Part shown: positions 49,818-64,000 of the stretch, in pieces
Position numbering within the stretch: position 1 is the first letter of the stretch
How the letters are laid out: each line of letters opens with the position of its first letter
NCBI RefSeq assembly: GCF_040537815.1
Contig: NZ_JBEWSZ010000001.1
Span: 1,302,001-1,366,000, forward strand
DNA from: Mesorhizobium shangrilense
Lineage (GTDB): Bacteria > Pseudomonadota > Alphaproteobacteria > Rhizobiales > Rhizobiaceae
Direction: 5' to 3'
DNA: 64,000 nt
Program-made: the position numbers and the translations under genes
Notes under the pieces: model-generated
Databases searched by the model: none
What the model saw: the letters and a program-made list of their open reading frames with translations, nothing else
What the model was told of the DNA's origin: nothing

Positions 49818-50000
49818 TGCAAACTCCTTCTTGTTTCCTCATGCCGGCAAAGGCAAATTCTGCAAAGCGACACGTCGAAATCACCGGAATGCGCGTATTC
49901 GCCACCGCATTTTGGGGGGTGCGTGCCAGATTGGGCCAAGGCCTAATGTTGCACTGCGAAACGCGCCTTTCAATGCCAATCTTCTTGGGCCAGTTTGCTC

Positions 50001-51425
50001 CTAATCGATTTGATCCGCTATGCGCGCCAGGCTCTCCTCGCGCCCGAGCACTGCAAGCACGTCGAACACTCCCGGCGAAGTGCTTTTCCCGGTCAGTGCA
50101 GCGCGCAACGGTTGGGCCACAGCCCCTAACTTGTGACCGCCGGCCAGTGCGTAGTCGCGAATCGCGGCCTCCACCGTGGCCGCCGTCCAGTCGCCCGTAA
50201 GCGCGTTCAAAGCTTCGTGAGCGCCCCGTAGAATCTTGCGGGCGTCGTCATTGAGCACCAGTGCGGCCTTGTCGTCGATCGGCAGCGGCCGTGTGGCAAA
50301 CAGGAAGGCTGCGCCATCGACCAGTTCGACCAACGTCTTGGCGCGCTCCTTCAAGCCCGGCAATGCGGTCAGCAGTTGCGCCTTGTTGTGGTCGTCCAGG
50401 CGTGCGGCCATTGCCGGACCGCCCTCGAGATAGGGCAAGGTGGCAATGAAGATATCGAACAGTTCGGCATCGGCCATGCGACGCATGTGCGCGCCGTTGA
50501 TCGCCTCGAGCTTGGCGAAGTCGAAGCGGGCAGCGCCCTTGTTGACGTCGCCGATGTCGAACCAGGAGATCATGTCCTTGATGGACATGATCTCGTCATC
50601 GCCGTGGCTCCAGCCGAGGCGCGCCAGGTAGTTGAGAAGAGCCTCGGGCAGATAACCCATGGCACGATAGGCTTCGACGCCGAGCGCACCATGCCGCTTC
50701 GACAGCTTGGCGCCATCGGCGCCATGGATCAGCGGGATGTGCGACATCGACGGCACGTCCCAGCCCATGGCGTTGTAGATCACGGTCTGGCGGGCGGCAT
50801 TGGTCAGGTGATCGTCACCACGGATGATATGGGTGACGCCCATGTCGTGGTCATCGACGACGACGGCATGCATGTAGGTCGGATTGCCGTCCGAGCGCAG
50901 GATGATGAAATCGTCGAGATCCTTGTTGGGGAATCGTACCTCGCCCTGCACGCGGTCGTGCACCACGGTTTCGCCCTCAGTCGGCGCCTTGATGCGGATG
51001 GCGCCCTTGACGCCGGGAGGTGCCTCGGACGGGGCGCGGTCGCGCCACTGGCCATTGTAGCGCGGCGGCAGACCCTTGGCACGCGCCGCCTCGCGCATCG
51101 CCTCGAGCTCGGCGGGTGTCTCGTAGCTGTAGTAGGCCTTGCCCATGCGCACGAGCTCTTCTGCCACCTCGCGGTGGCGCGGCGCGCGCTCGAATTGCGA
51201 CACGGCCTCACCATCCCAGGAAAGGCCGAGCCAGGTGAGCCCATCGAGAATGGCCGCCGTCGCCGCGTCGCTGGAACGTTCGCGGTCGGTATCCTCGATA
51301 CGCAGCACCATCGTGCCGCCGGTATGCTTGGCATACAGCCAGTTGAACAGCGCCGTGCGGGCGCCACCAATATGCAGGTAGCCGGTGGGCGAGGGAGCAA
51401 AGCGTGTGATGACCTTGTCGGACAT
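50001..51425 (-). CDS. gltX: Glutamyl-tRNA synthetase
   Basis: A 474-residue class I synthetase. The HIGH-type motif is in [20 protein letters not shown], followed by [11 protein letters not shown]. The KMSKS-type loop is [11 protein letters not shown], and the anticodon-binding domain fills about residues 330-474. Because GatCAB genes are present (gatC and gatA in this window), this enzyme or a paralogue is expected to misacylate tRNA(Gln). Rhizobia often have two GltX proteins. The ATG at 51425 gives the standard N-terminus. The 183 bases between this gene and gltA hold no gene that I can see. Confidence 0.96.
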
Positions 51426-51526
51426 GGGACTCTCGGAAGGCGTGTGAGGCTTGTCTGGTTTCGCGGACTTTCGCGCGTTGCGCGTTCATGTAGCATAGGA
51501 GGTCGAGGGCGCAAGGGGCAGACCCG

Positions 51527-53989
51527 ATGGCTGGAGGAAGCCGGGGTACCGACGAGAGCGAGGATGCCGTCACCGGCGTCAGCGAATGGTTACTATTTGC
51601 ACCCACCGTGGCGGTTCCGCCGACGCCGGTGGCGCCACCCCTATCGCGTCCCGGTGACGATCGTGCGCCTCCTGCCATACCCTCGGCAAATCCAGTTCCG
51701 GAGGCCGGTGCTGTCGTGCGTTTGCACCGGCAGTTCGGCCGCCTTTCGTTATCCGGTTTCCGCGGCATGGTGGTGTCCGCAGCCAACCTTGAGCTTGATC
51801 GCGGCGTTGCCTTTCTGTTGGTGCCGGTATTCCTTGCACTCGGCGTGATCGGATACTTTTCGCTGGGTGAGGAACCCGGTTTTCCGAAGATTGTCGCTGT
51901 CGTTTTCCTGGCGGCATCATGCGCATTCGTCTCGCGATCCTACCGCAAAACCCATTTGTGTTTCATGATGGCGCTGCTTTGCGCGCTGGGTGTGCTTGCC
52001 GCCAAGGTTGAGACATGGCGCGCCGGAACGCAGATCCTCGGTTCCGAAATCTCGACGCGACTGACGGGGCGTGTCGTCTCGCTCGACCAGATGCCGAATG
52101 GCCGCGTCCGGCTGACGATCGATGTTCTCTCGACGACAAGACCGACCCTGCGCTACGCGCCCGAACGGGTCCGCCTTTCCGCGCGAAAAATACCCTCCGA
52201 CATGACCGCCGGTTCCCAAGTCGCGGGCTATGTTCGGCTGTTGCCACCCACCGGTCCGGTCCGTCCGGACAGTTATGACTTCTCGTTTGACAGCTATTTC
52301 ACCGGCATTGGCGCCAGCGGCTTCTTCCTCAGCAATCCGACGATCGTTCCTTCCGACGATATGCCGTTTGCGGCGCGGCTTGGGTCGTCGATCGAAAACG
52401 CGCGCGAAACCATCGCCGATCATATCCGCACCAGCATCGGTGGCGCCGAGGGCGAGATTGCCGCCGCGCTTATCGTCGGCGTTCGTGCCGGAATCCCCGA
52501 AGAGATCAACGAGGCGATGCGGCGCACCGGCATCTATCATGTCATCTCCATTTCAGGACTTCACATGGCGCTGGTTGCCGGCACGATCATGCTGCTGCTG
52601 CGCGGTTCATTCGCCTTGTTTCCGGATTTCTCCTCGCGCCGTCCGGTCAAGAAATACGCAGCCGCGGCCGCGCTTGTCTCGATCGCCGCCTTTCTCGTGA
52701 TTTCCGGCATTGTGGTCGCGGCTGAGCGCAGTTTCATCATGCTTTCGGTCATGCTTGTCGCTGTGCTGTTCGATCGGGCGGCATTGACCATACGCAATCT
52801 CGCAATCTCAGCCATTGCCGTTATCGTCGTCTCGCCGCACGAGGTGGTCGGCCCCAGTTTCCAGATGTCCTTTGCGGCGACCGCTGCTCTCGTTGGTGCC
52901 TATGCCGGCTGGTCCGACTATCGCGCGCGCAAGGTCAGCACGCCGCCGCCGCGACGATCTCTGCCCGGCTTCCTCATGCGAAAACTGCTGCTGGCGACCG
53001 GAGGCCTCGCCATGACGTCCATCATAGCTGGAAGCGCGACGGCACTCTTTGCGATCTGGCATTTCCAGCGGGTGTCACCGTTCAGCCTGTTTGCCAATCT
53101 GGCCATCATGCCGATCGTGTCGGTGATCGTCATGCCCTTTGCGGTCTTCAGTTCGCTGGCCATGCCATTCGGAGCGGATGGGCCGTTCCTCTATGTCATG
53201 GGCAAGGGGCTGACAGCGATGATCGCGCTGTCAGCCTGGTTCTCTGAACGTTCGCCGATCGACGCGGTCGGGTTGATTTCGCTGCAATCGGTCTTGCTGG
53301 TGACAGTCGCCCTGATCATCGCGACGATGGCGACAACCTGGCTGCGGCTGGCGTCACTGCCTTTCGCGCTTGCCGGCCTGCTGACGATTTCCGACACGCG
53401 CGCGCCGGATGTACTGATTTCGGAAGATGCGCGGCTGGTGGCGTTGCCGATCGGCGGTGGCGAACTTGCAGTGAGCCGCGAGCGCCCCAACGAATTCACG
53501 GCGGACAACTGGAAGCGTGCGCTGCAATCCGAAACCATCATCAAGCCGGAGAGCTTCGGCCAAAGCGATCCACAATTCGACATCGCTGATGCCGCTGATC
53601 TGCCGCCGGGCGCGCCATTCTCATTCTATTGCAGTGACGATCTATGCGTTGCCCGACACCCGTCCGGCGCGATCGTTGTTTATGTGGAGGATCGCAAGAA
53701 AGCTTGGAAAGCCTGTCGTTTTGCTGATCTGATCGTCATCAACGACGCGACAGGCTACGACCCTTGCCGCAATCCGACGGTCCTCGTCGTCACCAAACGA
53801 CAACTCGCCCGCACGGGAAGTGCCGCCGTCTTCTTCGACCCGCAATCAGCGACTTCGCGACCGAAAATAAGCTTCGCGGTCGACAGACCGTACCGGCCTT
53901 GGCACCAGCAACGAAAATTCTCACGCGAGGCGAGGGGGCTGCCGCCCTATCGCAAGCCCGACAAACCCGTTGCTGCGCCGGCTCAATAA
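51527..53989 (+). CDS. comEC: ComEC/Rec2 family DNA-uptake channel
   Basis: An 820-residue inner-membrane protein that would carry single-stranded DNA into the cytoplasm during transformation. A Pro-rich N-terminal segment (1-80) precedes hydrophobic helices and a DUF4131/OB-like domain (about 170-265; [19 protein letters not shown]). The Competence domain follows: [20 protein letters not shown], then [20 protein letters not shown] and a long helix series to about 625. The last 190 residues are soluble and lack the HxHxDH metallo-beta-lactamase motif of Gram-positive ComEC. The ATG at 51527 is the first in-frame start. A later start near residue 80 (MVVSAANLE) is possible. It overlaps the lexA stop by seven bases. 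Confidence 0.9.
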
Positions 53990-54705
53990 CGCCGGATCAG
54001 TCCGACGAGCTTGCCTTGCACCTTGACGCGGTCGGGTCCGAAGATCCGGGTTTCGTAGGCAGGGTTGGCGGCCTCCAAGGCGATCGAGGCGCCTTTGCGG
54101 CGGAAGCGTTTCAGCGTCGCTTCTTCATCGTCGACCAGCGCCACGACGATCTCGCCGGGACTTGCGGTGTCGGCGTTGCGGATGATGACAGTATCGCCGT
54201 CGAAGATGCCAGCCTCGATCATCGAATCGCCCTTGACCTCCAGCGCATAGTGGTCGCCGCCCATGATCATGTCTGGCGGCACCGAGATGGAATGGGTCTG
54301 GTGCTGGATGGCATCGATCGGCACACCGGCGGCGATGCGGCCCATCACCGGGATGGATATCGCGGAGACCGCGTCATCGTCATTGCCAGCGGAAGGCATG
54401 CGGGTGGGGGCTGGCTTGATCTGTCGACCCAGGCTGCCCTGGATGACGCTCGGTGAAAATTTGCGCGCCGCGTTGAGGCCGGGTGCAATGGAATCGGGAA
54501 GACGCAGCACTTCCAGCGCACGAGCCCTGTTGGGTAGCCGGCGAATGAACCCGCGCTCTTCCAGCGCAGTGATCAGCCGGTGAATTCCGGACTTGGAAGC
54601 GAGGTCGAGCGCTTCCTTCATTTCGTCGAACGACGGGGGAATTCCGCTTTCCTTCAGCCGTTCATGGATGAACATCAGAAGTTCATGTTGCTTGCGCGTC
54701 AGCAT
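53983..54705 (-). CDS. lexA: SOS-response repressor LexA
   Basis: A 240-residue repressor and self-cleaving protease. The N-terminal winged helix is [20 protein letters not shown], then [20 protein letters not shown]. The cleavage site is A126-G127 (GRIAAGVPI), nucleophile S161 ([11 protein letters not shown]) and general base K199 (EEATLKRF). Alphaproteobacterial LexA is typically about 235-240 residues, longer than in E. coli. I start at ATG 54705. The TTG at 54717 would add four residues. The promoter carries a perfect SOS box, so lexA is autoregulated. It converges on comEC, with a 7-base overlap of the stops. Confidence 0.97.
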
Positions 54706-54770
54706 GGCGGCCCCCAAGGGATTCGAAGACGGGATCTGAAACCAGAATCAGAAAAACAAACCCAGAACAA

Positions 54771-54799
54771 ACACTATCTGTTCCAGTTGTGTTCCGCAA
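54771..54799 (-). promoter_or_regulatory. lexA promoter with SOS box
   Basis: On the minus strand TTGCGG (54794-54799), a 17-base spacer and TAGTGT (54771-54776) form a sigma-70-type promoter. GAAC-N7-GAAC, read on the plus strand as GTTC CAGTTGT GTTC at 54780-54794, fills the spacer. It matches exactly the direct-repeat SOS box of alphaproteobacteria. LexA bound here would block its own transcription. Confidence 0.85.
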
Positions 54800-55172
54800 C
54801 CGTTTAAAGTTTAATGAATATGTTCAGAGGGTGGAAACCATGCAATGCCCGCGACGGTTACCACGACAGCGGGCCGTGGTTCCAAATTTTGGCTTGGCCA
54901 AATTGAAATCATTTCGTTTTTTGCCTCTTGCGCAACCGTACAGCAGTCCTCGCCTCGTCGCCCGGACAACGGAAAATAATCCATTTGCGAAGCGGTTTGC
55001 CTCGCGGGTTGCCTAGCCCGCACGTGAACGAAACGAAGCCAAACTGCCAACCATTGGCAATTGCGGAATCTCATTTCCGGTCTGCCGCAAGTGGCCCCTT
55101 GGGCAGAGAGACTGCTCCGCCTCGAGTGGGCGAACATCAGGCTCATCGTCTTGGGTGAACCAGGGCGGGATT
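54800..55172. other. Intergenic region with inverted repeats, no gene seen
   Basis: About 370 bases lie between the lexA promoter and the 3' end of the dehydratase gene. A 111-codon minus-strand frame (54811-55146) is rich in Arg, Ser and Cys without family features, and I do not call it. ACCACG and CGTGGT flank a nine-base loop near 54860-54880, and a near-palindrome around TTTTGGCTTGGCCAAA lies near 54888-54903. These could belong to a small RNA or a regulator site. Confidence 0.4.
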
Positions 55173-56147
55173 TCAGGCAGGCGGGATTGCCCCGGCCAGC
55201 ACTTGCGCATAGGCGCCGGCATCAATGTTTCCGCCTGAAATAACGCAGACGATATTGCCGGTCGCGTGCTCGCTGCAAAGGGCGGCGGCCAGCGATGCGG
55301 CGCCCGCGCCTTCGGCCACGATCTTTGCGGTCGAGAACAGGAGCCGCATCGCGTCCGTTACCTGCTCAAGGCTGACGGCAATGGCTCCGTCGATAGACTG
55401 GTTCGCCAACGGCCATAGCGCGGGCACCAGGGACGGTCCGCCAATGCTCTTGATGAAGGACGGTCGTGTCTTGATCTCGACAATGCGCCCGGCTGCCAGT
55501 GCGGCGGTGACTGGAGCCGCGTTCTCGTCCTCGACCGCAAAGACCTTCGCCTGCGGCCGCAGTGCCTTGAGCGCGCTTGCGACCCCGGTTGTCATGCCGC
55601 CGCCGCCATAGGGTGTCAGCACGCAGTCGACCTCCGGCAGATCCTCGACGATCTCCAGGCCGATCGTGCCATTGCCCGCCAGCACCGCCTGATCGGTGAC
55701 GGGATTCACGAGGAGTTCATCGGTGTCCGGTTGTTCAACGCCGGTGATGTAGCGCCACCAGGTCTCATGGGAGACGAAACGCACCTCTCCGCCGAGGCGG
55801 CGAACCCCGTCAATCTTGGTTCGTGGGGCGTCGGAATACATGTAGGCGGCCATTGGAACGCCAAGCGCTCTTGCTGCCCAGGCCATGCCATAGGCCATGT
55901 TGCCGGAACTGACGGTCGCGACGCCATGCCTCAGCGCCTCCGCGTCGCGAGAGAGCAAGGCATTGAGCGCCGGCCTGACCTTGAAGGCCCCGATGGGCGA
56001 CAAGGTCTCGAGCTTGAGGAATATCCGTTGATCGGCCCGGCCAAGATCGACCCGCAGCAATGGCGTTCGCGGCAACCAGGTAGCCAGCCGGTCGCCGGCG
56101 GCAGCGATCTCGTCAAGCGTTGGACGGCGCGGAGGCGCTGAAATCAT
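55173..56147 (-). CDS. PLP-dependent threonine/serine dehydratase-family enzyme
   Basis: A 324-residue fold-type II PLP enzyme. The PLP lysine is in SPIGAFKVRPALNAL, SSGNMAYGMAWAARALGVP is the substrate-binding Asn loop, PYGGGGMTTGVASAL is the phosphate-binding glycine loop, and CVISGGNID closes the site. It lacks the C-terminal ACT-like regulatory domain of biosynthetic IlvA (about 500 residues), so it is a catabolic-type dehydratase or related lyase or racemase. It starts inside the stop of the GntR regulator gene (ATGA) and so belongs to the kynurenine-region regulon. No standard tryptophan pathway needs such an enzyme, so the substrate is open. Confidence 0.85.
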   Translation of the reverse strand: MISAPPRRPTLDEIAAAGDRLATWLPRTPLLRVDLGRADQRIFLKLETLSPIGAFKVRPALNALLSRDAEALRHGVATVSSGNMAYGMAWAARALGVPMAAYMYSDAPRTKIDGVRRLGGEVRFVSHETWWRYITGVEQPDTDELLVNPVTDQAVLAGNGTIGLEIVEDLPEVDCVLTPYGGGGMTTGVASALKALRPQAKVFAVEDENAAPVTAALAAGRIVEIKTRPSFIKSIGGPSLVPALWPLANQSIDGAIAVSLEQVTDAMRLLFSTAKIVAEGAGAASLAAALCSEHATGNIVCVISGGNIDAGAYAQVLAGAIPPA

Positions 56148-56917
56148 CCGCCGACAGCTTTCAGGCTGCCAGCACGCGCCGCGTATTTGTTTGCACCGAC
56201 GTCTTCGCTGTGGACATAGACATGCAGCGTGTAGCCGACGTGAGCGGTCATCAGCGCCTTTGCCCGTTCGACGTCACGATCGAGCGCCGCTTCCATGATT
56301 GCAGTGTGGTGTTCGATTGCAATCGCCTCACGCAGCGCGTCCATTGCCTCTTCGTAGCCATCCTTGAGGCCGGCGGCGGCCCGCAACGTCGGCGCGAGCC
56401 CAAGAAAGCGATGGTGCCGGCGCAGTTGATCCGAGATTGTCGAGCGGAATCGCAACAGCCAACTCGATGTTGCGGCACTCAGCAGGGCCGCGTGGAAAGC
56501 TTCATGGTTCTCGTCCCATCTGTCGACGGCCGCGTCGGAAGGATCATCGACCGCGGTCTTGCAACGCGACAGCCGGTAATGGGCGGTGACCACCGCATCT
56601 TCCCACGCACTGCCACCTTTCTCGATCGATTCCAGGAACAGGGGGATCTCAACAACCATTCTTGCGCGTGCCAGATCCTCAAGTTCGGCCCGCGACACGG
56701 GCGCGACGGCAAAGCCGCGGTTGCTGATGGCCGTGACCAGGCGTTCAGCTTCGAGCCGAGACAATGCTTCGCGCAGCGGCGTCCAACCGACGCCATAGAT
56801 GCCGCGCAGCGCACTCAGCTTGAGCGGTGCGCCCGGCATGAGCCGCGTGGTGAGGATGTCCCGCCGCAGCAGCTGATAGGCCGCCTCCGTCTTTGTCGAG
56901 TTCTTCTGGTCCTGCAT
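56144..56917 (-). CDS. GntR family regulator, FCD (FadR) subgroup
   Basis: A 257-residue regulator. The N-terminal winged helix contains AYQLLRRDILTTRLMPGAPL, then WTPLREALSRLEAERLVTAI and NRGFAVAPVSRAELEDL. The helical FCD domain (about 90-225) has the expected metal-binding residues in DENHEAFHAALLSA, AIEHHTAIMEAALDRD and AHVGYTLHV. I start at ATG 56917 (MQDQKNSTK). The frame is open to 57283, but that stretch crosses the divergent transporter promoter and its first codons. It is transcribed with the dehydratase and away from the ABC importer. The two dyads in between are its likely operators. Confidence 0.92.
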   Translation of the reverse strand: MQDQKNSTKTEAAYQLLRRDILTTRLMPGAPLKLSALRGIYGVGWTPLREALSRLEAERLVTAISNRGFAVAPVSRAELEDLARARMVVEIPLFLESIEKGGSAWEDAVVTAHYRLSRCKTAVDDPSDAAVDRWDENHEAFHAALLSAATSSWLLRFRSTISDQLRRHHRFLGLAPTLRAAAGLKDGYEEAMDALREAIAIEHHTAIMEAALDRDVERAKALMTAHVGYTLHVYVHSEDVGANKYAARAGSLKAVGG

Positions 56918-56948
56918 CGCGGTCCATTCATCATCTGGTGTGGGCAAA

Positions 56949-56989
56949 ATTATATATGATACGGAAGCATGGCAAGAATTATATATAAT
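56949..56989. promoter_or_regulatory. Paired operator-like palindromes between the GntR gene and the ABC importer
   Basis: ATTATATATGAT (56949-56960) and ATTATATATAAT (56978-56989), differing by one base. The second is a perfect palindrome. They are 29 bases apart, start to start. The run of A and T stands out against the GC-rich surroundings. The second dyad ends two bases before the -35 box of the importer promoter, and the first lies 32 bases from the regulator start, so one protein could control both directions. Confidence 0.65.
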
Positions 56990-56991
56990 GT

Positions 56992-57020
56992 TTGACATGC
57001 GCGGAGGGACTGACCATGAT
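56992..57020 (+). promoter_or_regulatory. Promoter of the ABC importer-kynureninase operon
   Basis: A perfect TTGACA (56992-56997), a 17-base spacer and CATGAT (57015-57020). Transcription would start near 57027, about 47 bases before the first gene. Confidence 0.6.
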
Positions 57021-57073
57021 CGCCGCAGTTGCCGTCCTATAGCGGCGCTAATCAAATCTGGGAGGAAATGATG

Positions 57074-58057
57074 ATGAAGTCGAAGTCCGCTTGGCTGTCG
57101 GGATTGGCCCTGGCTGGCGCGCTGATGGTCAGCGCCGGGAGTGCCGCCGCCGATCAGATCCGCATCGGCATCGCCAATTTCGGCGAGCATCCGCAGCTGA
57201 ACGCCGCCATCGCCGGTTTCAAGAAGGCGCTCACCGCGAACGGCTTCGTCGAGGGCAAGGATGTCGTCTACTCCGAAAGCCACACCAATTTCGATGCGTC
57301 GCTGGTTCCGCAGATGATCGCCAAGCTGCAGGCGGAGCAGCCCAAGCTGATGTACACCATCACCACGCCGGTCTCGCAGATCGCCAAGAAGGCGCTTGCC
57401 GGCTCGGGCATCCCGATCGTCTTCGCGGCAGTGACCGATCCGGTCGCGGCCAAGCTCGTTCCGTCATGGGACTCTGGTGACGAAGGCATGACTGGCGCCA
57501 CCGATCTCCAGGATGTCGCAGCGGTGATGGCTTTCACCAAGAAGCTGCTGCCGAACGCCAAACGCTTTGGCGTGCCTTACAATCCGGGCGAGGCGAACGA
57601 CGTCGCGCTGCTTGAAAAGATCAAGGAAGCGGCGCCCGCGGCAGGGTTCGAAGTCGTCGAGGTCGGTATCGACAACGTCAACGACATCCAGCAGCGCATC
57701 GCTTCGCTGGCAGGCAAGGCCGACGTGATCTACGGACCCACATCGAACCTCATCCAGCCGGCGATCGCGGCTGTCTCGGCAGCAGCGCGTCAGGCCGGCA
57801 TCCCCGTGGTCAATGCGGACGACAATGCGGTGCGTAGCGGTGTCGTGCCGGCGAGCTTCGCGGTCAACTACGAGCAGGTTGGCGTCAACGCGGGCAACAT
57901 CGCGGCGGAAGTCCTGAAGGGCAAGGACCCGAAGGCGATCCCGCCTTCGCGCCCGGCCTACAAGGACCACGCAGCGCTGATCTCGAAGAAGGCGATGGCC
58001 GCGTTCGGCATCGAAATCCCGGCTTCGCTGGCGGATTGCGGCTGCATCGTCGACTGA
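57074..58057 (+). CDS. ABC importer substrate-binding protein, TrpX-like
   Basis: A periplasmic binding protein of about 327 residues in the ABC_sub_bind family (COG2984), which includes the tryptophan-operon-linked TrpX proteins of Firmicutes. A signal peptide covers about residues 1-25 (GLALAGALMVSAGSAAA). Two alpha/beta lobes follow: IRIGIANFGEHPQLNAAIAG, then ITTPVSQIAKKALAGSGIPI, GVPYNPGEANDVALLEKIKE and IYGPTSNLIQPAIAAVSAAA. Three ATGs stand in a row (57068, 57071, 57074) behind GGAGGA. I take the third for spacing. The kynurenine genes downstream suggest tryptophan, kynurenine or anthranilate as ligand, which is an inference from context. Confidence 0.9.
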   Translation: MKSKSAWLSGLALAGALMVSAGSAAADQIRIGIANFGEHPQLNAAIAGFKKALTANGFVEGKDVVYSESHTNFDASLVPQMIAKLQAEQPKLMYTITTPVSQIAKKALAGSGIPIVFAAVTDPVAAKLVPSWDSGDEGMTGATDLQDVAAVMAFTKKLLPNAKRFGVPYNPGEANDVALLEKIKEAAPAAGFEVVEVGIDNVNDIQQRIASLAGKADVIYGPTSNLIQPAIAAVSAAARQAGIPVVNADDNAVRSGVVPASFAVNYEQVGVNAGNIAAEVLKGKDPKAIPPSRPAYKDHAALISKKAMAAFGIEIPASLADCGCIVD

Positions 58058-58122
58058 CATCGAGCTTCATCAAGCAGGTGGCGGCACCTTGAAGGGGCCG
58101 CCACCGTTTTCGGGAGGGCCTG

Positions 58123-58902
58123 ATGCTCGAGATCCGATCCGCACGCAAGGTTTTCTACAAGGGCCAGGCCGACGAGAAGGTCGCGCTCGATGGCCTCGAC
58201 CTGTCCCTCGCCACCGGCGATTTCGGTGTCGTCATCGGTTCGAACGGGGCCGGCAAGAGCAGCATGCTCAACGCCATTTCTGGTGCCCTTGTCCTCGATT
58301 CCGGCAGAATACTGATCAATGGCGCTGATGTTACCGACATGCCGGTGCACAAGCGCGCCACGAAATTGGCCCGTGTTTTCCAGGATCCGATGCGCGGCAC
58401 CGCTGCCAGCATGACGGTGGCGGAGAACATGCTGCTGGCCGACCTGCGCAGCCACAAGCGCACCCTGCGGCAAGGGCTTAACCCCACCCGGCTCGCATCC
58501 TACAAGGAGCGCCTCTCGATACTGGGCCTTGGCCTTGAAAATCGGCTGGATACCCGCGTCGACCTGCTCTCGGGTGGGCAGCGACAGTCACTGTCGCTGA
58601 TCATGGCCGTCGGCGGATCGCCGGACCTGCTGTTGCTTGATGAACATACGGCGGCACTCGACCCGCGCACCGCGGAGATCGTCATGCAGGCTACGGTGCG
58701 TGCCGTAAATGCACTAAAGCTTACCACCCTGATGGTGACCCACAACATGCAGCACGCCGTGGACTATGGCAGCCGCGTGATCATGCTCGACGCGGGCCGG
58801 GTCCGCCTGGAAGTCGCCGGTGAGGCGAAAGCCGGGGTTACGGTCATCGACCTCATCGGCCATTTCTCCGTCAAGACCGACCGCATGTTGTTGGCGAGCT
58901 GA
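58123..58902 (+). CDS. ABC importer ATP-binding protein
   Basis: A 259-residue ATPase of the COG1101 type that pairs with ABC_sub_bind proteins. Walker A is GSNGAGKSS, the Q-loop is in LARVFQDPMRGTAASMTVAE, the signature is LLSGGQRQSLSL, Walker B is LLLLDEHTAALDP and the switch His is in MVTHNMQHAVDYG. The PMRGTA segment after the Q-loop is typical of this branch. GGGAGG precedes the ATG. It lies 65 bases after the binding-protein gene and five bases before the permease. Confidence 0.94.
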   Translation: MLEIRSARKVFYKGQADEKVALDGLDLSLATGDFGVVIGSNGAGKSSMLNAISGALVLDSGRILINGADVTDMPVHKRATKLARVFQDPMRGTAASMTVAENMLLADLRSHKRTLRQGLNPTRLASYKERLSILGLGLENRLDTRVDLLSGGQRQSLSLIMAVGGSPDLLLLDEHTAALDPRTAEIVMQATVRAVNALKLTTLMVTHNMQHAVDYGSRVIMLDAGRVRLEVAGEAKAGVTVIDLIGHFSVKTDRMLLAS

Positions 58903-58907
58903 TCATC

Positions 58908-59831
58908 ATGGATTTTGTTCAGGAAATTCTGACGAGCTTCGTCTCGATCATTCCCGTCACCTTGGCGCAAAGCCTCTTGCTGGCCTTCGTCGTGCTTGGG
59001 ATCATGATCCCATTTCGGATGCTGAACTTTCCAGACCTCACCAGCGAGGGAGCGTTCCCACTGGGTGGCTGCGTCTGCGGTGTGCTTCTTGCCGCCGGCA
59101 CATCACCGTTGATAGCCATCGCCGTCGCCCTTGCGGCGGGCTTTGTGGCGGGCTGTTGCACGGCCTTCATCCATCTGCGCTTCCGCATCCACACGCTGCT
59201 TGCGGGCATCCTGATGATGACGATGCTCTACAGCATCAACCTGCGTATCATGGGCAAGTCCAACCTCTCCGTCTTTGGTTCACCCACCGTATTCGACTGG
59301 GTGCCGTTCGCCCGGCCAGGTTTTCCGGCCAGCAAGATCGTTGTTGCAGGCCTGATCGCGTTTGCTGTCTTCCTGCTGCTCAACATGTTCTTCAAGACCG
59401 AGAAAGGCACGGCGGTCCGCGCAGTGGGCGCCAATCCCGACATGGCCGAAGCGCAGGGCATCAATGTCTGGGCGGCCACGATTGGCGGTGTCGGCTTGGC
59501 GAGCGCGTTCTCGGCGACCAGCGGCGCGCTGATGGTGCAGTCGCAAGGCTTTGCCGACGTCAATATGGGTCTCGGCATTCTCATCAACGGTCTTGCCGCC
59601 CTGATGATCGGCGAGGCCATTATCGGCAAGCAGACCGTGCGGCGCCAGTTGCTGGCGCCCTTTGTCGGAGCGATCGTCTACTACCAGCTGGTGTCGTTCT
59701 GCCTTGCCGCGGGAATGCCGCCACCGGATCTCAAGCTCGCCACCGGCCTGTTCGTGCTTGCCATGCTGGCACTGCCAAGCCTGAAGCGCAGCCGAGGGCC
59801 TGCGCTCGCGCGGGAAACCATTCGCGAATAA
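58908..59831 (+). CDS. ABC importer permease, TrpY-like
   Basis: A 307-residue membrane protein with about eight hydrophobic segments, in the branched-chain-type permease fold (COG4120). Landmarks are SLLLAFVVLGIMIPFRMLNF, PDLTSEGAFPLGGCVCGVLL, AGILMMTMLYSINLRIMGK, the EAA-like TAVRAVGANPDMAEAQGI and GLGILINGLAALMIGEAIIG. It is the only permease of the operon, so it should form a homodimer. It sits between the ATPase gene and kynU, with 17 bases to the latter, consistent with one transcript. Confidence 0.93.
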   Translation: MDFVQEILTSFVSIIPVTLAQSLLLAFVVLGIMIPFRMLNFPDLTSEGAFPLGGCVCGVLLAAGTSPLIAIAVALAAGFVAGCCTAFIHLRFRIHTLLAGILMMTMLYSINLRIMGKSNLSVFGSPTVFDWVPFARPGFPASKIVVAGLIAFAVFLLLNMFFKTEKGTAVRAVGANPDMAEAQGINVWAATIGGVGLASAFSATSGALMVQSQGFADVNMGLGILINGLAALMIGEAIIGKQTVRRQLLAPFVGAIVYYQLVSFCLAAGMPPPDLKLATGLFVLAMLALPSLKRSRGPALARETIRE

Positions 59832-59848
59832 CCAAGGACTGACTGATC

Positions 59849-61096
59849 ATGAGTGCAATTCCCGATCTCGCTGCGATCGAGGCGATGGATGCGGCCGATC
59901 CCCTGCGTTCGATGCGTGACCGCTTCATCCTGCCGAAGGGGGTAATCTATCTCGACGGCAACTCGCTGGGTGCGGCGTCACACGCTGTTTTCGATGAGCT
60001 TCAGAAGGCTTCCACCCAGGAATGGGCTCAGGACCTCATCCGAGCGTGGAACACGGCCGGCTGGTTCGACACCCCGACAACCCTAGGCGATCAGCTCGGC
60101 CGCCTGATTGGTGCCGCCGCCGGCCAGACGGTGGTCTGTGACACGACGTCGATCAACATCTACAAGGTGTTGCATGCTGCGTTGGCGATGCGGCCGGACC
60201 GGTCGGTCATCGTTGCCGAGGGCGACAGTTTTCCCACCGATCTCTACATGGCCGAGGGCGTTGCCTCGACCCGGCCGGGCGCGGTGCTGCGCCTCGAAGG
60301 CGTCGACGCACCAAGCATCGAGGAGCTGATCGACGAGCGTGTCGCGGTCATCCTGGTCAACCACGTCAACTACAAGTCAGGCGAATTGCGCGACATGGTG
60401 GCGCTGACGCGCCGGGCGCATGAGGTCGGGGCGCTGATCGTCTGGGATCTGTGCCACACCGCCGGGGCGCTGCCGGTCGAACTCGACCGGGCCAATGCCG
60501 ATTTCGCCGTCGGCTGCACCTACAAATACCTCAATGGCGGCCCGGGCGCGCCAGCCTTCATCTATGCGGCCAAGCGGCATCTTGCGGAGGTCCGCCAGCC
60601 GCTCAGCGGCTGGTGGGGACATGCACGGCCTTTTGCCTTCGAGCGGGGTTATGTGGCCGGCACCGGCATTCGCCGGTTCCTGTGTGGCACGCAGCCGATC
60701 CTGTCGATGCGGGCACTGAAAGGCGCGCTCGACATCTGGGATGATGTCGACATGGCGGCCTTGCGCAAGAAGAGCATCGCGCTGACCGACCTGTTCATCC
60801 AACTCGTCGAAGCGAAATGCGGCGCTTTCGGCCTCACGCTGGAGAGCACCCGCGATGGAAGCCGACGCGGCAGCCAGGTGTCGTTCCTTCACGACCACGG
60901 CTATCAGGTCATGCGGGCACTGATCGACCGCGGCGTGATCGGCGATTTCCGCGCGCCGTCGACCATCCGCTTCGGCTTCACGCCACTGTATGTCAGCTAC
61001 AGGGATGTGTGGCAGGCGGTTGAGGTGCTGGAAGACATCCTGCGCACCGGCGCCTGGAAGGATCCACGTTTCGCCACCAAGGAAGCCGTGACCTGA
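59849..61096 (+). CDS. kynU: Kynureninase
   Basis: A 415-residue PLP enzyme that cleaves kynurenine to anthranilate and alanine. Landmarks are VIYLDGNSLGAASHAVFDEL, NTAGWFDTPTTLGDQLGRLI, CDTTSINIYKVLHAAL, AEGDSFPTDLYMAEGVA, D200 and H203 in IVWDLCHTAGALPVEL, and the PLP lysine K226 in VGCTYKYLNGGPGAPAF. RPSTIRFGFTPLY-like residues (APSTIRFGFTPLYVSY) close the C-terminal domain. Length is typical. It is the last gene of the importer operon, so kynurenine cleavage and solute uptake are co-regulated. A hairpin follows 19 bases after the stop. Confidence 0.96.
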   Translation: MSAIPDLAAIEAMDAADPLRSMRDRFILPKGVIYLDGNSLGAASHAVFDELQKASTQEWAQDLIRAWNTAGWFDTPTTLGDQLGRLIGAAAGQTVVCDTTSINIYKVLHAALAMRPDRSVIVAEGDSFPTDLYMAEGVASTRPGAVLRLEGVDAPSIEELIDERVAVILVNHVNYKSGELRDMVALTRRAHEVGALIVWDLCHTAGALPVELDRANADFAVGCTYKYLNGGPGAPAFIYAAKRHLAEVRQPLSGWWGHARPFAFERGYVAGTGIRRFLCGTQPILSMRALKGALDIWDDVDMAALRKKSIALTDLFIQLVEAKCGAFGLTLESTRDGSRRGSQVSFLHDHGYQVMRALIDRGVIGDFRAPSTIRFGFTPLYVSYRDVWQAVEVLEDILRTGAWKDPRFATKEAVT

Positions 61097-61114
61097 GGCG
61101 AGGAGAGGTCGTTT

Positions 61115-61140
61115 CAGCCTCGCTTGAGATGGCGAGGCTG
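61115..61140. terminator. Terminator between kynU and the convergent kynA
   Basis: CAGCCTCGC and GCGAGGCTG form a perfect 9-bp stem with an eight-base loop, followed by TTT. It lies between two convergent genes and could act on both strands, though the T-run is short. Confidence 0.65.
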
Positions 61141-61180
61141 TTTGGCGGGCCGGCCCATTACGTCGAATGGGCCTTGGGCG

Positions 61181-62017
61181 TCATAACCTTGTGCGAACCT
61201 TCCAGAGTTCGGGAAACAGTTCGACCTCCAGCATCTTCTTCAGATAGGACGCACCAGACGTGCCACCGGTGCCGCGTTTCATGCCGATGATGCGCTCGAC
61301 CGTCGTGACGTGGTTGAAGCGCCAGCGCCTGAAATAATCCTCGAAATCGACCAGCTTCTCGGCCAGTTCGTAGAACATCCAGTAGCGCTGCGGATCGCGA
61401 TAGACGGACTGCCAGGCGACCAGGACTTCTTCGTTCTCGGTGCGGGTTTCACGCCAGTCCGTGCGCCTGGCATCGGCGCCGATGTCAAACCCGTTGCGGC
61501 CAAGCAGCAGGATCGCTTCGTCGTAGAGCGAAGGCGCCGCAAGAATCGCCTCCAGCTTTTCGGTCAGGTCCGGCCTGTGCTTGTGCGGGCCGAGCATGGC
61601 GAGGTTGCGATTGCCGGCCATGAACTCGATGGCGCGGTACTGCCAGGACTGGAAGCCCGAGGACTGGCCGAGAGAATCGCGGAACTCGGTGTATTCGCTG
61701 GGCGTCATCGTCCTCAGCACGTCCCAGGCATTGTTCAGCTGCTCGAAGATGCGGGCGACGCGCGACAGCATCTTGAAGCTCGGCTCGAGCCGGTCGGCGC
61801 GGATGGAGCGGATCGCGGCGCCGATCTCATGCAAAGCGAGCTTCATCCACAATTCCGACGTCTGATGCTGGATGATGAACAGCATCTCGTCGTGCGCTGA
61901 CGACAGCGGCGCCTGGGCGTCGAGGATCTTCTCCAGGTGCAGATAGTCGCTGTAGGACATGCGCTCCTTGAACGACATCTCAGCGCCTTCGGACGAAGGA
62001 TCGTATGGCTCGCTCAA
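61181..62017 (-). CDS. kynA: Tryptophan 2,3-dioxygenase
   Basis: A 278-residue haem dioxygenase that opens the indole ring of tryptophan to give N-formylkynurenine. Landmarks are [20 protein letters not shown] (H51, substrate side), [32 protein letters not shown] at the end, and the probable haem-ligand H236 in [20 protein letters not shown]. The start is a TTG that overlaps the stop of the CoA-ligase gene and gives [12 protein letters not shown], the usual family beginning. The ATG at 61978 would remove this conserved part. It forms an operon with the ligase and converges on kynU. Confidence 0.95.
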
Positions 62018-63639
62018 TGGATTTTCTCCGTGCGCAACCGGAAGCGCTGTATCTTGCCGGTCTGGGTCTTGGGCAGGGCGGCAATGAATTTGACTGATCG
62101 CGGATATTTGTAAGGGGCGATCGTCGCCTTGACGTGGTCCTGCAGGCGCTTGATGGTCAATGCATCGGGCGCCACGCCTTGCACGAGCACGACATACGCC
62201 TCGACGATCTGGCCGCGCTCGACATCCTCGGCGCCGATCACCGCGCATTCAGCAACATCCGCGTGCGACAGCAGCGCCGCCTCGACCTCGGGCCCGGCAA
62301 TGTTGTAGCCGGCGCTGACGATCATATCGTCGGATCGCGCGGCGAAGTGGAAGAAACCGTCCTCGTCCTGCGTGAAGGTGTCGCCGGTGAGGTTCCAGCC
62401 GTCGCGGACATATTCCTTCTGCCTGGTATCGGCCATGTAGCGGCAACCGGTCGGCCCGCGCACCGCGAGCCTGCCTGTCATGCCGCGCGGCAGTTCGTTC
62501 ATCTCATCGTCGACGATGCGCGCCTCGTAGCCGCCTACCGGCTTGCCGGTCGACGCAGGTTTCATGTCGTCGAAGCGGTTGGAGATGAAGATGTGCAGCA
62601 TTTCGGTGGCGCCGATGCCGTCGAGGATCGGCTTGCCGGTCTTTTGCGTCCACTCTTCGAAGACTGGCGCTGGCAGCGTCTCGCCGGCCGAAACGGCGAC
62701 GCGCAGCGATGAGAGGTCAGCGCCTTCGTCCATGGCCTTCAACATCGCGCGGTAGGCGGTGGGTGCGGTGAAGGAGACCGTCGCCTTATAGGTCTCGATG
62801 ATGTGGATCATGTTGGGCGGCGTCGCCTGTTCCAGCAACGTTGCCGCCGCGCCGAAGCGCAATGGGAAGATGGCCAGGCCGCCAAGGCCGAAGGTGAAGG
62901 CGAGCGGTGGCGAGCCGACAAAGATGTCGTCTGGCGTCACCTGGAGAATTTCGCGCGCATAGGCGTCGGCGATGATCAGGAGGTCGCGGTGGAAATGCAT
63001 CGTCGCCTTCGGCACGCCGGTCGTGCCCGAGGTGAAGCCGAGCAGGGCGACGTCGTCGCGGCCGGTGTTGACGGCGGTGAAGATCACCGGCTTGTCGAGA
63101 GCTGCGCGATCGAGTTCTGCATCATGGTTGGCGGTGCCGTCGAAGCCGATGACCTGTTTGAGGAATGCACTGTCCTTGGCGCATGCGGTCATCTCATCCA
63201 TCAGCCTGGTGTCGCAGAGAGCAACCGTGATTTCCGCCTTGTCGACGATCTTGGCAAGCTCGCCGGCGCGCAGCATCGGCATGGTGTTGACAACCACGGC
63301 GCCGACCTTGGTGGCAGCCAGCCAGCAGGCGACCATGGCGGGATTGTTGGCCGAGCGGATCAGCACCCGGTTGCCCGGCTTGATGCCATAGTTCTCGACC
63401 AGCGCATGGGCCAGCCGGTTCGTCCAGTCGGACAATTCCTTGTAGGTGCGGCGGCGGCCGTTGCCGATCAGCGCCGTATGGTCGCCCAGGCCTTTTTCAA
63501 CCAGCCTGTCCGTCAATTCGACACCGGCGTTGAGGCGCTCGGGATAGTCGAAGCCGTCAAGCAGGAAATCCGGCCACTGCTCCGGCGGCGGAAGGTTGTC
63601 ACGCGTAAAGGTGTCCACATGCGCTGATGGCCCGAGCAT
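62014..63639 (-). CDS. Aminobenzoate/benzoate-type CoA ligase
   Basis: A 541-residue member of the adenylate-forming family. Motifs are [20 protein letters not shown] (P-loop), [38 protein letters not shown] with [20 protein letters not shown], and [14 protein letters not shown] with the catalytic Lys. The [14 protein letters not shown] and [20 protein letters not shown] segments are characteristic of benzoate- and 2-aminobenzoate-CoA ligases. Given tryptophan dioxygenase as its operon partner and kynureninase next door, anthranilate is the most probable substrate. The ATG at 63639 gives [20 protein letters not shown]. No anthraniloyl-CoA monooxygenase is in the window. Confidence 0.9.
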
Positions 63640-63961
63640 TTTCGCGACTTTCCCCTGTCGTTATGGCCGCGGCACGAGGTTGCCCGGCTCCATTCTGCGT
63701 CTACTGTTTTAGGTGGAAGGTCGGTCCTGCCGGCCCCGGATCCGAGCGCGACGCCATTGGCACAGCCGTGGCTGAGCGACGGTATGTGGGTCTATCGGAT
63801 GGCACAGTGAGATCTCCCGTTCTCGACTGAACATGACACAGCATCGCACTTGCCGAAATTTGTTTCAAGCCTAAAGGTTTTTGTCCCGAAGCATTGACGC
63901 CATCGGATTCGATGCTCATTGCTACGCGACTGAACGATGCGCTTTTTGGGGGAGGGTGCCG
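63640..63961. other. Divergent intergenic region
   Basis: About 320 bases between the CoA-ligase start (minus strand) and a new gene start at 63962 (plus strand). No copy of the ATTATATAT dyad is found here, so the catabolic operon may be regulated separately from the importer. TTGACG at 63893 has no good -10 partner. I see no RNA gene or repeat. Confidence 0.5.
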
Positions 63962-64000
63962 GTGCACGAACATCGAATCACCGATTGGGACAATGCCTAT
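63962..64000 (+). CDS. Start of an unidentified protein, possibly an alpha/beta-hydrolase (kynurenine formamidase-like)
   Basis: GGGGGAGGG, a strong ribosome-binding site, lies six bases before a GTG that opens a frame reading MHEHRITDWDNAYA-like residues up to the window edge (13 codons seen: MHEHRITDWDNAY). ITDWDNAY resembles the beginning of rhizobial alpha/beta-hydrolases of the arylformamidase group, which start with DWD-AY. That enzyme would hydrolyse N-formylkynurenine, the one missing step between KynA and KynU. The identification rests on very few residues. Confidence 0.45.
   Translation, partial: MHEHRITDWDNAY

Follow-up and report, generated by a model that had tools for sequence, protein, structure and literature searches.

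A candidate ABC importer for kynurenine-class compounds encoded next to kynureninase in Mesorhizobium shangrilense

The locus described here raises the question of what an ABC importer encoded directly in front of a kynureninase gene carries into a rhizobial cell. It lies in the last part of a stretch of 64,000 nucleotides of Mesorhizobium shangrilense (the window; C1:1302001-1366000 of the 8.35 Mb genome), to which all coordinates refer unless another locus is named. Its nearest named relatives, judged by the sequence of the substrate-binding protein (SBP), are Mesorhizobium (up to 95% identity). An earlier note on this DNA had described a TrpXYZ-like importer and suggested kynurenine or tryptophan as its ligand, and each gene it had placed there proved to be an open frame matching the expected family. 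Sequence comparison makes it fairly probable that the locus encodes an importer for a kynurenine-class compound, probably L-kynurenine and possibly N-formylkynurenine too, that feeds the kynureninase KynU. The genes of importer and route are the following:

57071..58057, plus strand: periplasmic SBP (PF04392, 195.9 bits; TrpX-like, under the TrpX cut-off)
58123..58902, plus strand: importer ABC ATPase (PF00005)
58908..59831, plus strand: importer ABC permease (PF02653)
59849..61096, plus strand: kynureninase, kynU (TIGR01814; solved kynureninase 1qz9)
61181..62017, minus strand: tryptophan 2,3-dioxygenase, TDO (TIGR03036; 2nox)
62014..63639, minus strand: aryl-CoA ligase (TIGR02262; 4wv3)
63962..64000, plus strand: first 39 bases of an alpha/beta hydrolase gene, candidate N-formylkynurenine formamidase, AFM (whole gene L001:13963-14793, window-equivalent 63962-64792)

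Results and discussion

Layout of the locus and the predicted route

From 55173 to the end of the window the gene order is a pyridoxal-phosphate (PLP) enzyme and gntR (minus strand), the SBP, ATPase, permease and kynU (plus strand), and TDO with the aryl-CoA ligase (minus strand). SBP and ATPase are separated by 65 bp, ATPase and permease by 5 bp, and permease and kynU by 17 bp; the four appear to form one operon, as the earlier note had proposed. Its second operon also held up: the TDO start (TTG at 62017) and the ligase stop share the bases TTGA, and ligase and TDO thus look like a single transcript on the strand opposite to the importer-kynU operon. AFM starts 322 bp from the ligase start in divergent orientation, just beyond the window, and has 276 residues. 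By manual reading, the SBP begins with a Sec-type signal sequence without a lipoprotein signal.

The enzyme assignments are of unequal strength. KynU scores 374.8 bits against TIGR01814 (cut-off 246.4) and aligns with the solved kynureninase 1qz9 at E 4.6e-140; TDO, scored on 61181-61999, reaches 430.3 bits against TIGR03036 (cut-off 390.7) and aligns with 2nox at E 3.7e-107. The CoA ligase, at 369.9 bits, falls slightly below the TIGR02262 cut-off of 375.25. Its closest solved chain is the anthranilate-CoA ligase 4wv3 (E 1.9e-86), and it is most likely an anthranilate (2-aminobenzoate)-CoA ligase. AFM aligns at E 1.6e-17 with the solved formamidase 4e11, which we take to be the Drosophila kynurenine formamidase, with HGGYW and GHSAGG in register; HGG-W and GHSAG are presumably the oxyanion and nucleophile motifs of the animal-type kynurenine formamidase. 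A homologue of the anthraniloyl-CoA-type oxygenase (ACMR-type) is encoded about 2.4 Mb away in the window's genome and is 54% identical to the Aminobacter ACMR, which is encoded near the importer there.

The scheme that we infer for ligand, transport direction, formamidase activity, anthranilate fate and regulator role runs as follows. The SBP would hold the alpha-amino and carboxyl groups of its ligand like other aromatic amino acid SBPs and accept an aminobenzoyl side chain. Imported N-formylkynurenine would be deformylated by the alpha/beta hydrolase, and KynU, as assigned at the family level, would cleave kynurenine to yield anthranilate and alanine. From anthranilate the ligase would make anthraniloyl-CoA, to be attacked by the fused FAD/OYE oxygenase-reductase (ACMR-type) encoded elsewhere. 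TDO would give many species entry to the same route from tryptophan, and the Rhizobium group without canonical TDO would depend on outside kynurenines. On paper, this bears out the chain from tryptophan to anthraniloyl-CoA put forward earlier and extends it by the candidate AFM outside the window and the distant ACMR homologue.

Linkage of the importer to kynurenine genes

Conservation of the importer-kynU arrangement was assessed in 80 named loci, the best 80 of 109 SBP relatives (76-95% identity), a set that leans to close kin and counts E. oleiphilus and Sinorhizobium sp. A49 twice each. In 70 of them kynU directly follows the permease on the same strand within 400 bp; in three it lies elsewhere in the locus, and in seven it is not in the locus. 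The earlier note had staked its proposal on importer and kynU being adjacent in related genomes, which is thus what most of these loci show. The row SBP-ATPase-permease-kynU-AFM with no TDO in the locus was found in 26 of the 80, labelled Rhizobium or "Rhizobiales bacterium".

A less biased estimate comes from 151 genomes drawn evenly across the family, with 109 genera represented, and searched with thresholds of E <= 1e-60 for the SBP and E <= 1e-40 for kynU; at most 14 SBP and 12 kynU candidates were scored per genome, so that weak paralogues may be missed. The SBP occurs in 17 of the 151 genomes, all 17 of which also have kynU, compared with 81 of 151 overall (Fisher p 1e-5, ignoring kinship). 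Where the SBP has at least 55% identity, kynU lies within 10 kb in 12 of 15 loci. In nine it follows the SBP on the same strand at about 1.8 kb, a spacing that leaves room for ATPase and permease; in two (G113, G199) it is divergent at about 0.9 kb, and in one (G173) it is 9 kb away. Weaker SBPs in the sample are unlinked (G118 and G057, 39-43% identity; a second copy in G158, 40%). A binomial estimate puts the chance of such linkage at 7.5e-27, assuming a 5 Mb genome and ignoring kinship. The linkage of SBP and kynU is far above chance, and the association of importer and kynurenine genes that the note had drawn from one genome is well supported.

Gene order shifts between lineages while the kynurenine genes stay by the importer. 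In L126 and L127 (SBP 56 and 54% identical) SBP-ATPase-permease-AFM diverges from gntR-kynU-TDO; in L128 (57%) the order is AFM-SBP-ATPase-permease with an adjoining ACMR-type gene, and a ligase-TDO-kynU row lies several kb off; and L136 (57%), from another family of the class, reads ligase-TDO-kynU-RidA-thiolase-SBP-ATPase-permease. Importer and gntR adjoin ACMR in L053, L057, L062 and L138, with TDO and kynU several kb distant. At E <= 1e-80 the SBP is a narrow family: matches were found in 4 of 385 genomes of the class and 9 of 398 of the phylum (at most five candidates scored per genome; the two draws overlap, and each count includes the window's own genome). In a tree of 46 SBPs, B, C and F are arrangements that occupy a single branch apiece, and six changes are required for arrangement A and five for the unlinked state; with its bootstrap unsettled and long branches flagged, it serves as a sketch only.

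The SBP pocket

The nearest named family of the SBP is TrpX (NF041285), against which it scores 183.5 bits with a curated cut-off of 390. The best solved relatives are CD0873 (6HNI, E 6.1e-46) and VC_1101 (3LKV, E 8.2e-44). According to two studies, five residues hold the amino acid in PF04392 SBPs (T108, A127, T129, D152 and N233 in the TrpX of S. suis) and two positions set the side chain (Glu263/Ala and Tyr279/Gln): the tryptophan binder has Ala and Gln, the phenylalanine binder Ala and Tyr, and the tyrosine binder Glu and Tyr (PMC6816091, PMC9382623). Gln-284 of SP1069 is given there as the position that accepts the indole (PMC6816091).

By alignment and spacing, the clamp residues of the window SBP are T99, A120, T122, D145 and N226, each present in 81 of 81 sequences. 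Tyr267 takes the place of the tryptophan-selecting Gln in 81 of 81, and D250 occupies the other specificity position in 77 of 81. The linked SBPs of L126-L128 (54-57% identity) keep the five clamp residues and Y267, and the unlinked ones of L129, L130 and L131 (39-43%) each have at least two of the five changed. The ligand would on these grounds be an alpha-amino acid, and the tryptophan signature is missing. The likeness to TrpXYZ thus stands for the Pfam family and the clamp residues, but the SBP is not a TrpX by the NCBI cut-off.

Two candidates were set aside. Anthranilate is disfavoured as ligand, the alpha-amino-acid clamp being complete, and D250 was rejected as a single kynurenine-recognising residue since the position varies, with Val or Ser in some members. 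A second form of importer and kynU, with Val for D250, occurs in L041, L042, L044 and L047 and is followed in L041 by an aldehyde dehydrogenase; both forms are present together in E. oleiphilus and Sinorhizobium sp. A49.

The acidic residue and Tyr at the two specificity positions resemble the tyrosine binder CD0873, and unlinked SBP copies exist in Nitratireductor and Thalassospira. Both would suit an importer whose ligand is a different amino acid, one resembling tyrosine or an aromatic one made by plants, and whose neighbourhood was inherited without functional meaning. The kynurenine genes that stay by the importer through the changes of gene order (L126, L127, L128, L136 and the window's group) speak against this explanation, which we regard as very improbable.

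Genomes without canonical tryptophan dioxygenase

TDO (PF03301) was searched in 50 genomes: the 44 without TDO in the locus and six with it (L004, L017, L019, L053, L057, L062). The other 30 of the 80 loci all contain TDO, at least 83% identical. Scores were bimodal, with a best piece of at least 133 bits in 23 genomes, 64-73 bits in 24 and no match in three (G010, G012, G013); we call the group of at least 133 bits canonical, a split of our own. A control for this search matched in 2 of 14 genomes. Compared with the TDO of the window, the 23 canonical proteins scored at least 400 bits and the seven divergent homologues extracted 79-81 bits. Two of the 24 divergent homologues scored 125.2 and 123.1 bits against TIGR03036, far from its cut-off of 390.7 and above the Pfam cut-off, and four that were aligned keep the histidine-bearing segments and miss the GTGGxSG segment. 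The divergent homologue has about 275 residues (Rhizobium; L117:5623-6450, L121:5947-6777 and kin). Its annotated neighbours are tetR in L121 and, in L117, nramp together with genes for a peptidase and an efflux adaptor.

Canonical TDO is present in the genomes of 53 of the 80 loci and missing from those of 27. Importer, kynU and AFM stand in one row in 25 of these 27, the exceptions being L041 and L042; L066 has the same row in a genome with canonical TDO. Elsewhere in the genome, 23 of the 27 carry both a CoA ligase orthologue (76-78% identity) and an ACMR (about 77%), which by their coordinates are direct neighbours in divergent orientation in every case. A single stop appears in 11 of these ligase matches; in L122, the only one where it was located, it falls at the natural C-terminal end. 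IDO, as a hidden source of formylkynurenine, had no match in the 27 genomes in a search whose control gave no match anywhere either. On paper, these 23 genomes can convert kynurenine to anthraniloyl-CoA and degrade it further, but they lack the known enzyme for making kynurenine from tryptophan.

This combination of a missing canonical TDO with a retained route through KynU, ligase and ACMR is better matched by an importer of kynurenine or formylkynurenine than by one of tryptophan. A tryptophan or general aromatic amino acid importer, with TDO and formamidase making kynurenine, KynU and ligase finishing the route, and kynU adjacent as a matter of operon convenience, would agree with TrpX as the nearest named family and with solved relatives reported to bind Trp, Phe and Tyr (PMC6816091). 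In 36 of the 80 loci TDO is present alongside the importer, and L136 has TDO, kynU and importer in one row. The TrpX score of less than half the cut-off, the Tyr in place of the Gln that admits tryptophan, the genomes without canonical TDO but with importer-kynU-AFM rows and the separation in the window, where the importer shares its row with kynU and TDO stands on the other strand with the ligase, make this reading unlikely. Between the two ligands that the earlier note had named, tryptophan is thus disfavoured, and kynurenine or N-formylkynurenine would be the better choice.

A different objection concerns the fate of the product. Imported kynurenine might, in at least some species, be salvaged rather than burned, the anthranilate from KynU feeding tryptophan synthesis and alanine being gained besides. 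Ligase and ACMR are both missing in four of the 27 genomes without canonical TDO (G007, G010, G012, G013) at the thresholds used, and the cluster adjoins trpD-trpC in the window's genome and in 13 of the 80 loci, all Mesorhizobium. The thresholds (1e-60, 1e-100) are strict, so that the four genomes may hold weaker homologues; the ligase-ACMR pair is kept in 23 of 27, and the window's cluster itself contains the ligase. We consider salvage quite improbable.

The reading of the locus as a kynurenine-class importer has a number of points against it. The two best solved relatives of AFM are esterase/lipase chains, with kynurenine formamidase third, and its NCBIfam name is hormone-sensitive lipase; we keep it as a candidate formamidase by giving its gene company more weight than that name. 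Pfam's own cut-off yields a TDO-family match in 47 of the 50 genomes, the divergent Rhizobium homologue might make formylkynurenine, and the blank control weakens the IDO result. TDO accompanies 53 of the 80 loci and shares the importer's row in L136, where tryptophan import would be useful too. Tyr267 could crowd kynurenine as well as tryptophan, and D250 gives way to Val in L041, L042, L044 and L047 and to Ser in L126 and L127. The unlinked SBPs of Nitratireductor and Thalassospira, the genera of the seven loci without kynU nearby, also keep the clamp, D250 and Y267, and the pocket alone is thus no proof of kynurenine. Finally, three of the 15 family-sample SBPs of at least 55% identity have no linked kynU (G090, G109, G186), and L135 (58%) is unlinked to kynurenine genes.

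Weighing both sides, we retain a kynurenine-class compound as the probable ligand. We see about an even chance for the stronger proposal of a dedicated SBP-dependent importer of kynurenine and/or N-formylkynurenine, with which rhizobial hosts lacking canonical TDO would scavenge kynurenines from other organisms or from tryptophan oxidation in soil and root exudate; AFM in the row would make N-formylkynurenine a natural substrate.

Regulation

The range from 55173 to 64000 also holds a GntR/FCD regulator and a PLP-fold enzyme that did not enter the reasoning of the earlier note. The regulator and the elements between it and the importer are:

56144..56947, minus strand: GntR/FCD transcriptional regulator (PF00392 + PF07729), divergent from the importer
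56949..56960, no strand: operator-like site ATTATATATGAT (12-bp match and alignment of related loci)
56978..56989, no strand: operator-like perfect palindrome ATTATATATAAT, directly 5' of the -35-like box (aligned in relatives)
56992..57020, plus strand: sigma-70-like promoter TTGACA-17-CATGAT of the importer-kynU operon (consensus match)

The start of gntR is uncertain, being either the TTG at 56947 or, by manual reading, an in-frame ATG at about 56917. Within the gap of 123 bp between gntR and the SBP stand two near-palindromes rich in AT. They are 29 bp apart, and the second comes directly before the TTGACA box. With two mismatches allowed they are the only matches in the 64 kb (0.12 expected), and 73 of the 80 loci have a site with up to two mismatches in the 250 bp that precede the SBP. 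The promoter has no support by number (one found, 1.2 expected). It is conserved in the alignment of related loci, and a loose TTGAC-17/19-YATSMT pattern precedes the SBP in 73 of the 80. No Rfam match to a T-box or other RNA leader was found in 50000-64000.

The GntR/FCD regulator would probably repress importer and kynU through the paired sites by the promoter, and it probably controls these genes only. One regulon for the whole route was rejected: within the window and L001 the sites occur only before the importer, and at two mismatches none was found in the ligase-hydrolase gap of L001 or in the short ligase/ACMR loci L122-L125 of four Rhizobium genomes. This distribution would fit an importer-kynU operon that is switched separately from ligase and TDO. 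The site was also rejected as a unique mark of the GntR regulator, because another ABC operon of the genome, sugar-type by manual reading of the translations, is preceded by a similar pair with a spacing of 31 bp and a mismatch in one copy; more than one regulator may recognise the motif.

Neighbouring genes

One further gene of the range overlaps gntR by 4 bp:

55173..56147, minus strand: PLP fold-type II enzyme (PALP; serine/threonine dehydratase or serine-racemase-like)

Its nearest solved structure is the serine racemase 5cvc (E 3.2e-49), and it accompanies the importer in 28 of the 80 loci, beside gntR in 17 and after kynU on the opposite strand in 11 (Ensifer/Sinorhizobium/Shinella/Ferirhizobium). 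One idea is that it acts as a racemase that would open access to D-kynurenine.

In the window and the 13 Mesorhizobium loci mentioned above, the cluster sits between trpD-trpC-moaC-moeA (L002:842-4375) and the genes at 53983-54717 and 51527-53989, read manually from their translations as lexA and comEC, and looks as though inserted beside tryptophan synthesis genes. Eighteen of the 80 loci, counted by the SBP of this system, have an arrangement other than that of the window, in which a second, Liv-type ABC importer lies between kynU and TDO; it was annotated as such in L017 (L017:14234-18952) and occupies the same place in the 17 others. Its ligand may be anthranilate or a different aromatic acid. 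In the window's genome, a second PF04392 importer (C1:3229069; L003 = G000:C1:3220000-3239000) stands in a row with an AMP-dependent ligase, a thiolase-like protein and a class-III aminotransferase. No match to kynU, TDO or AFM was found within these 19 kb, a candidate for an unrelated uptake-and-degradation cluster.

Comparison with known systems

With streptococcal TrpXYZ (NF041285; SP1069/3LFT) the importer shares the PF04392 SBP, the make-up of SBP, permease and ATPase and the five clamp residues. It differs in the low TrpX score, the Tyr for Gln, the lack of an upstream T-box match and the linkage to kynurenine catabolism. CD0873, the tyrosine SBP of Clostridioides difficile, and VC_1101 have Tyr at the same specificity position, and an acid stands at the place of CD0873 Glu263 in 77 of 81 sequences; the window SBP is set apart by the missing lipoprotein signal (manual reading), by Val or Ser replacing the acid in some members, and by the conserved differences N36, T98, S225, Q229 and N248 in its family, which may or may not line the pocket. 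In our view the SBP probably functions as the SBPs for aromatic amino acids do, with its side-chain pocket shifted.

The aerobic 2-aminobenzoyl-CoA (anthraniloyl-CoA) pathway uses a fused monooxygenase/reductase. Its likeness here consists of the anthranilate-CoA-ligase-like gene and, in relatives, the ACMR-type protein that fuses FAD_binding_3 and Oxidored_FMN. The NCBIfam name of this fused enzyme, salicylyl-CoA 5-hydroxylase/oxidoreductase, and the distance of the homologue from the window mark the difference.

We know of no SBP-dependent kynurenine importer in print; none appeared in the literature listings, of which the top of long lists was covered, with most subscription journals outside their scope. 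If the reading is true, it supplies a testable ligand for a branch of PF04392 whose nearest named family is TrpX, and kynurenines would count as a genuine currency in the soil and the rhizosphere. A kynurenine SBP would also be a ready biosensor part for this neuro- and immunoactive metabolite. A formamidase gene of R. leguminosarum is reported to be up six- to ten-fold in the pea rhizosphere (PMC3333776).

Among the literature found, the closest published system in logic is the Kyn cluster of the Acinetobacter baumannii complex (KynR-KynU-permease-alpha/beta hydrolase). It lacks KynA, and its hosts are reported to grow on kynurenine and to lose this growth when the cluster is deleted (PMC9162365). 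The two systems have in common KynU, a transporter, a formamidase of the human type (a candidate in the rhizobial case) and, in the genomes without canonical TDO, the absence of KynA. Acinetobacter has an amino-acid permease and an Lrp/AsnC-type regulator (PMC9162365), whereas the rhizobial cluster has an SBP-dependent ABC importer, a GntR/FCD regulator and a CoA-ligase route, by which rhizobia probably burn anthranilate as its CoA ester.

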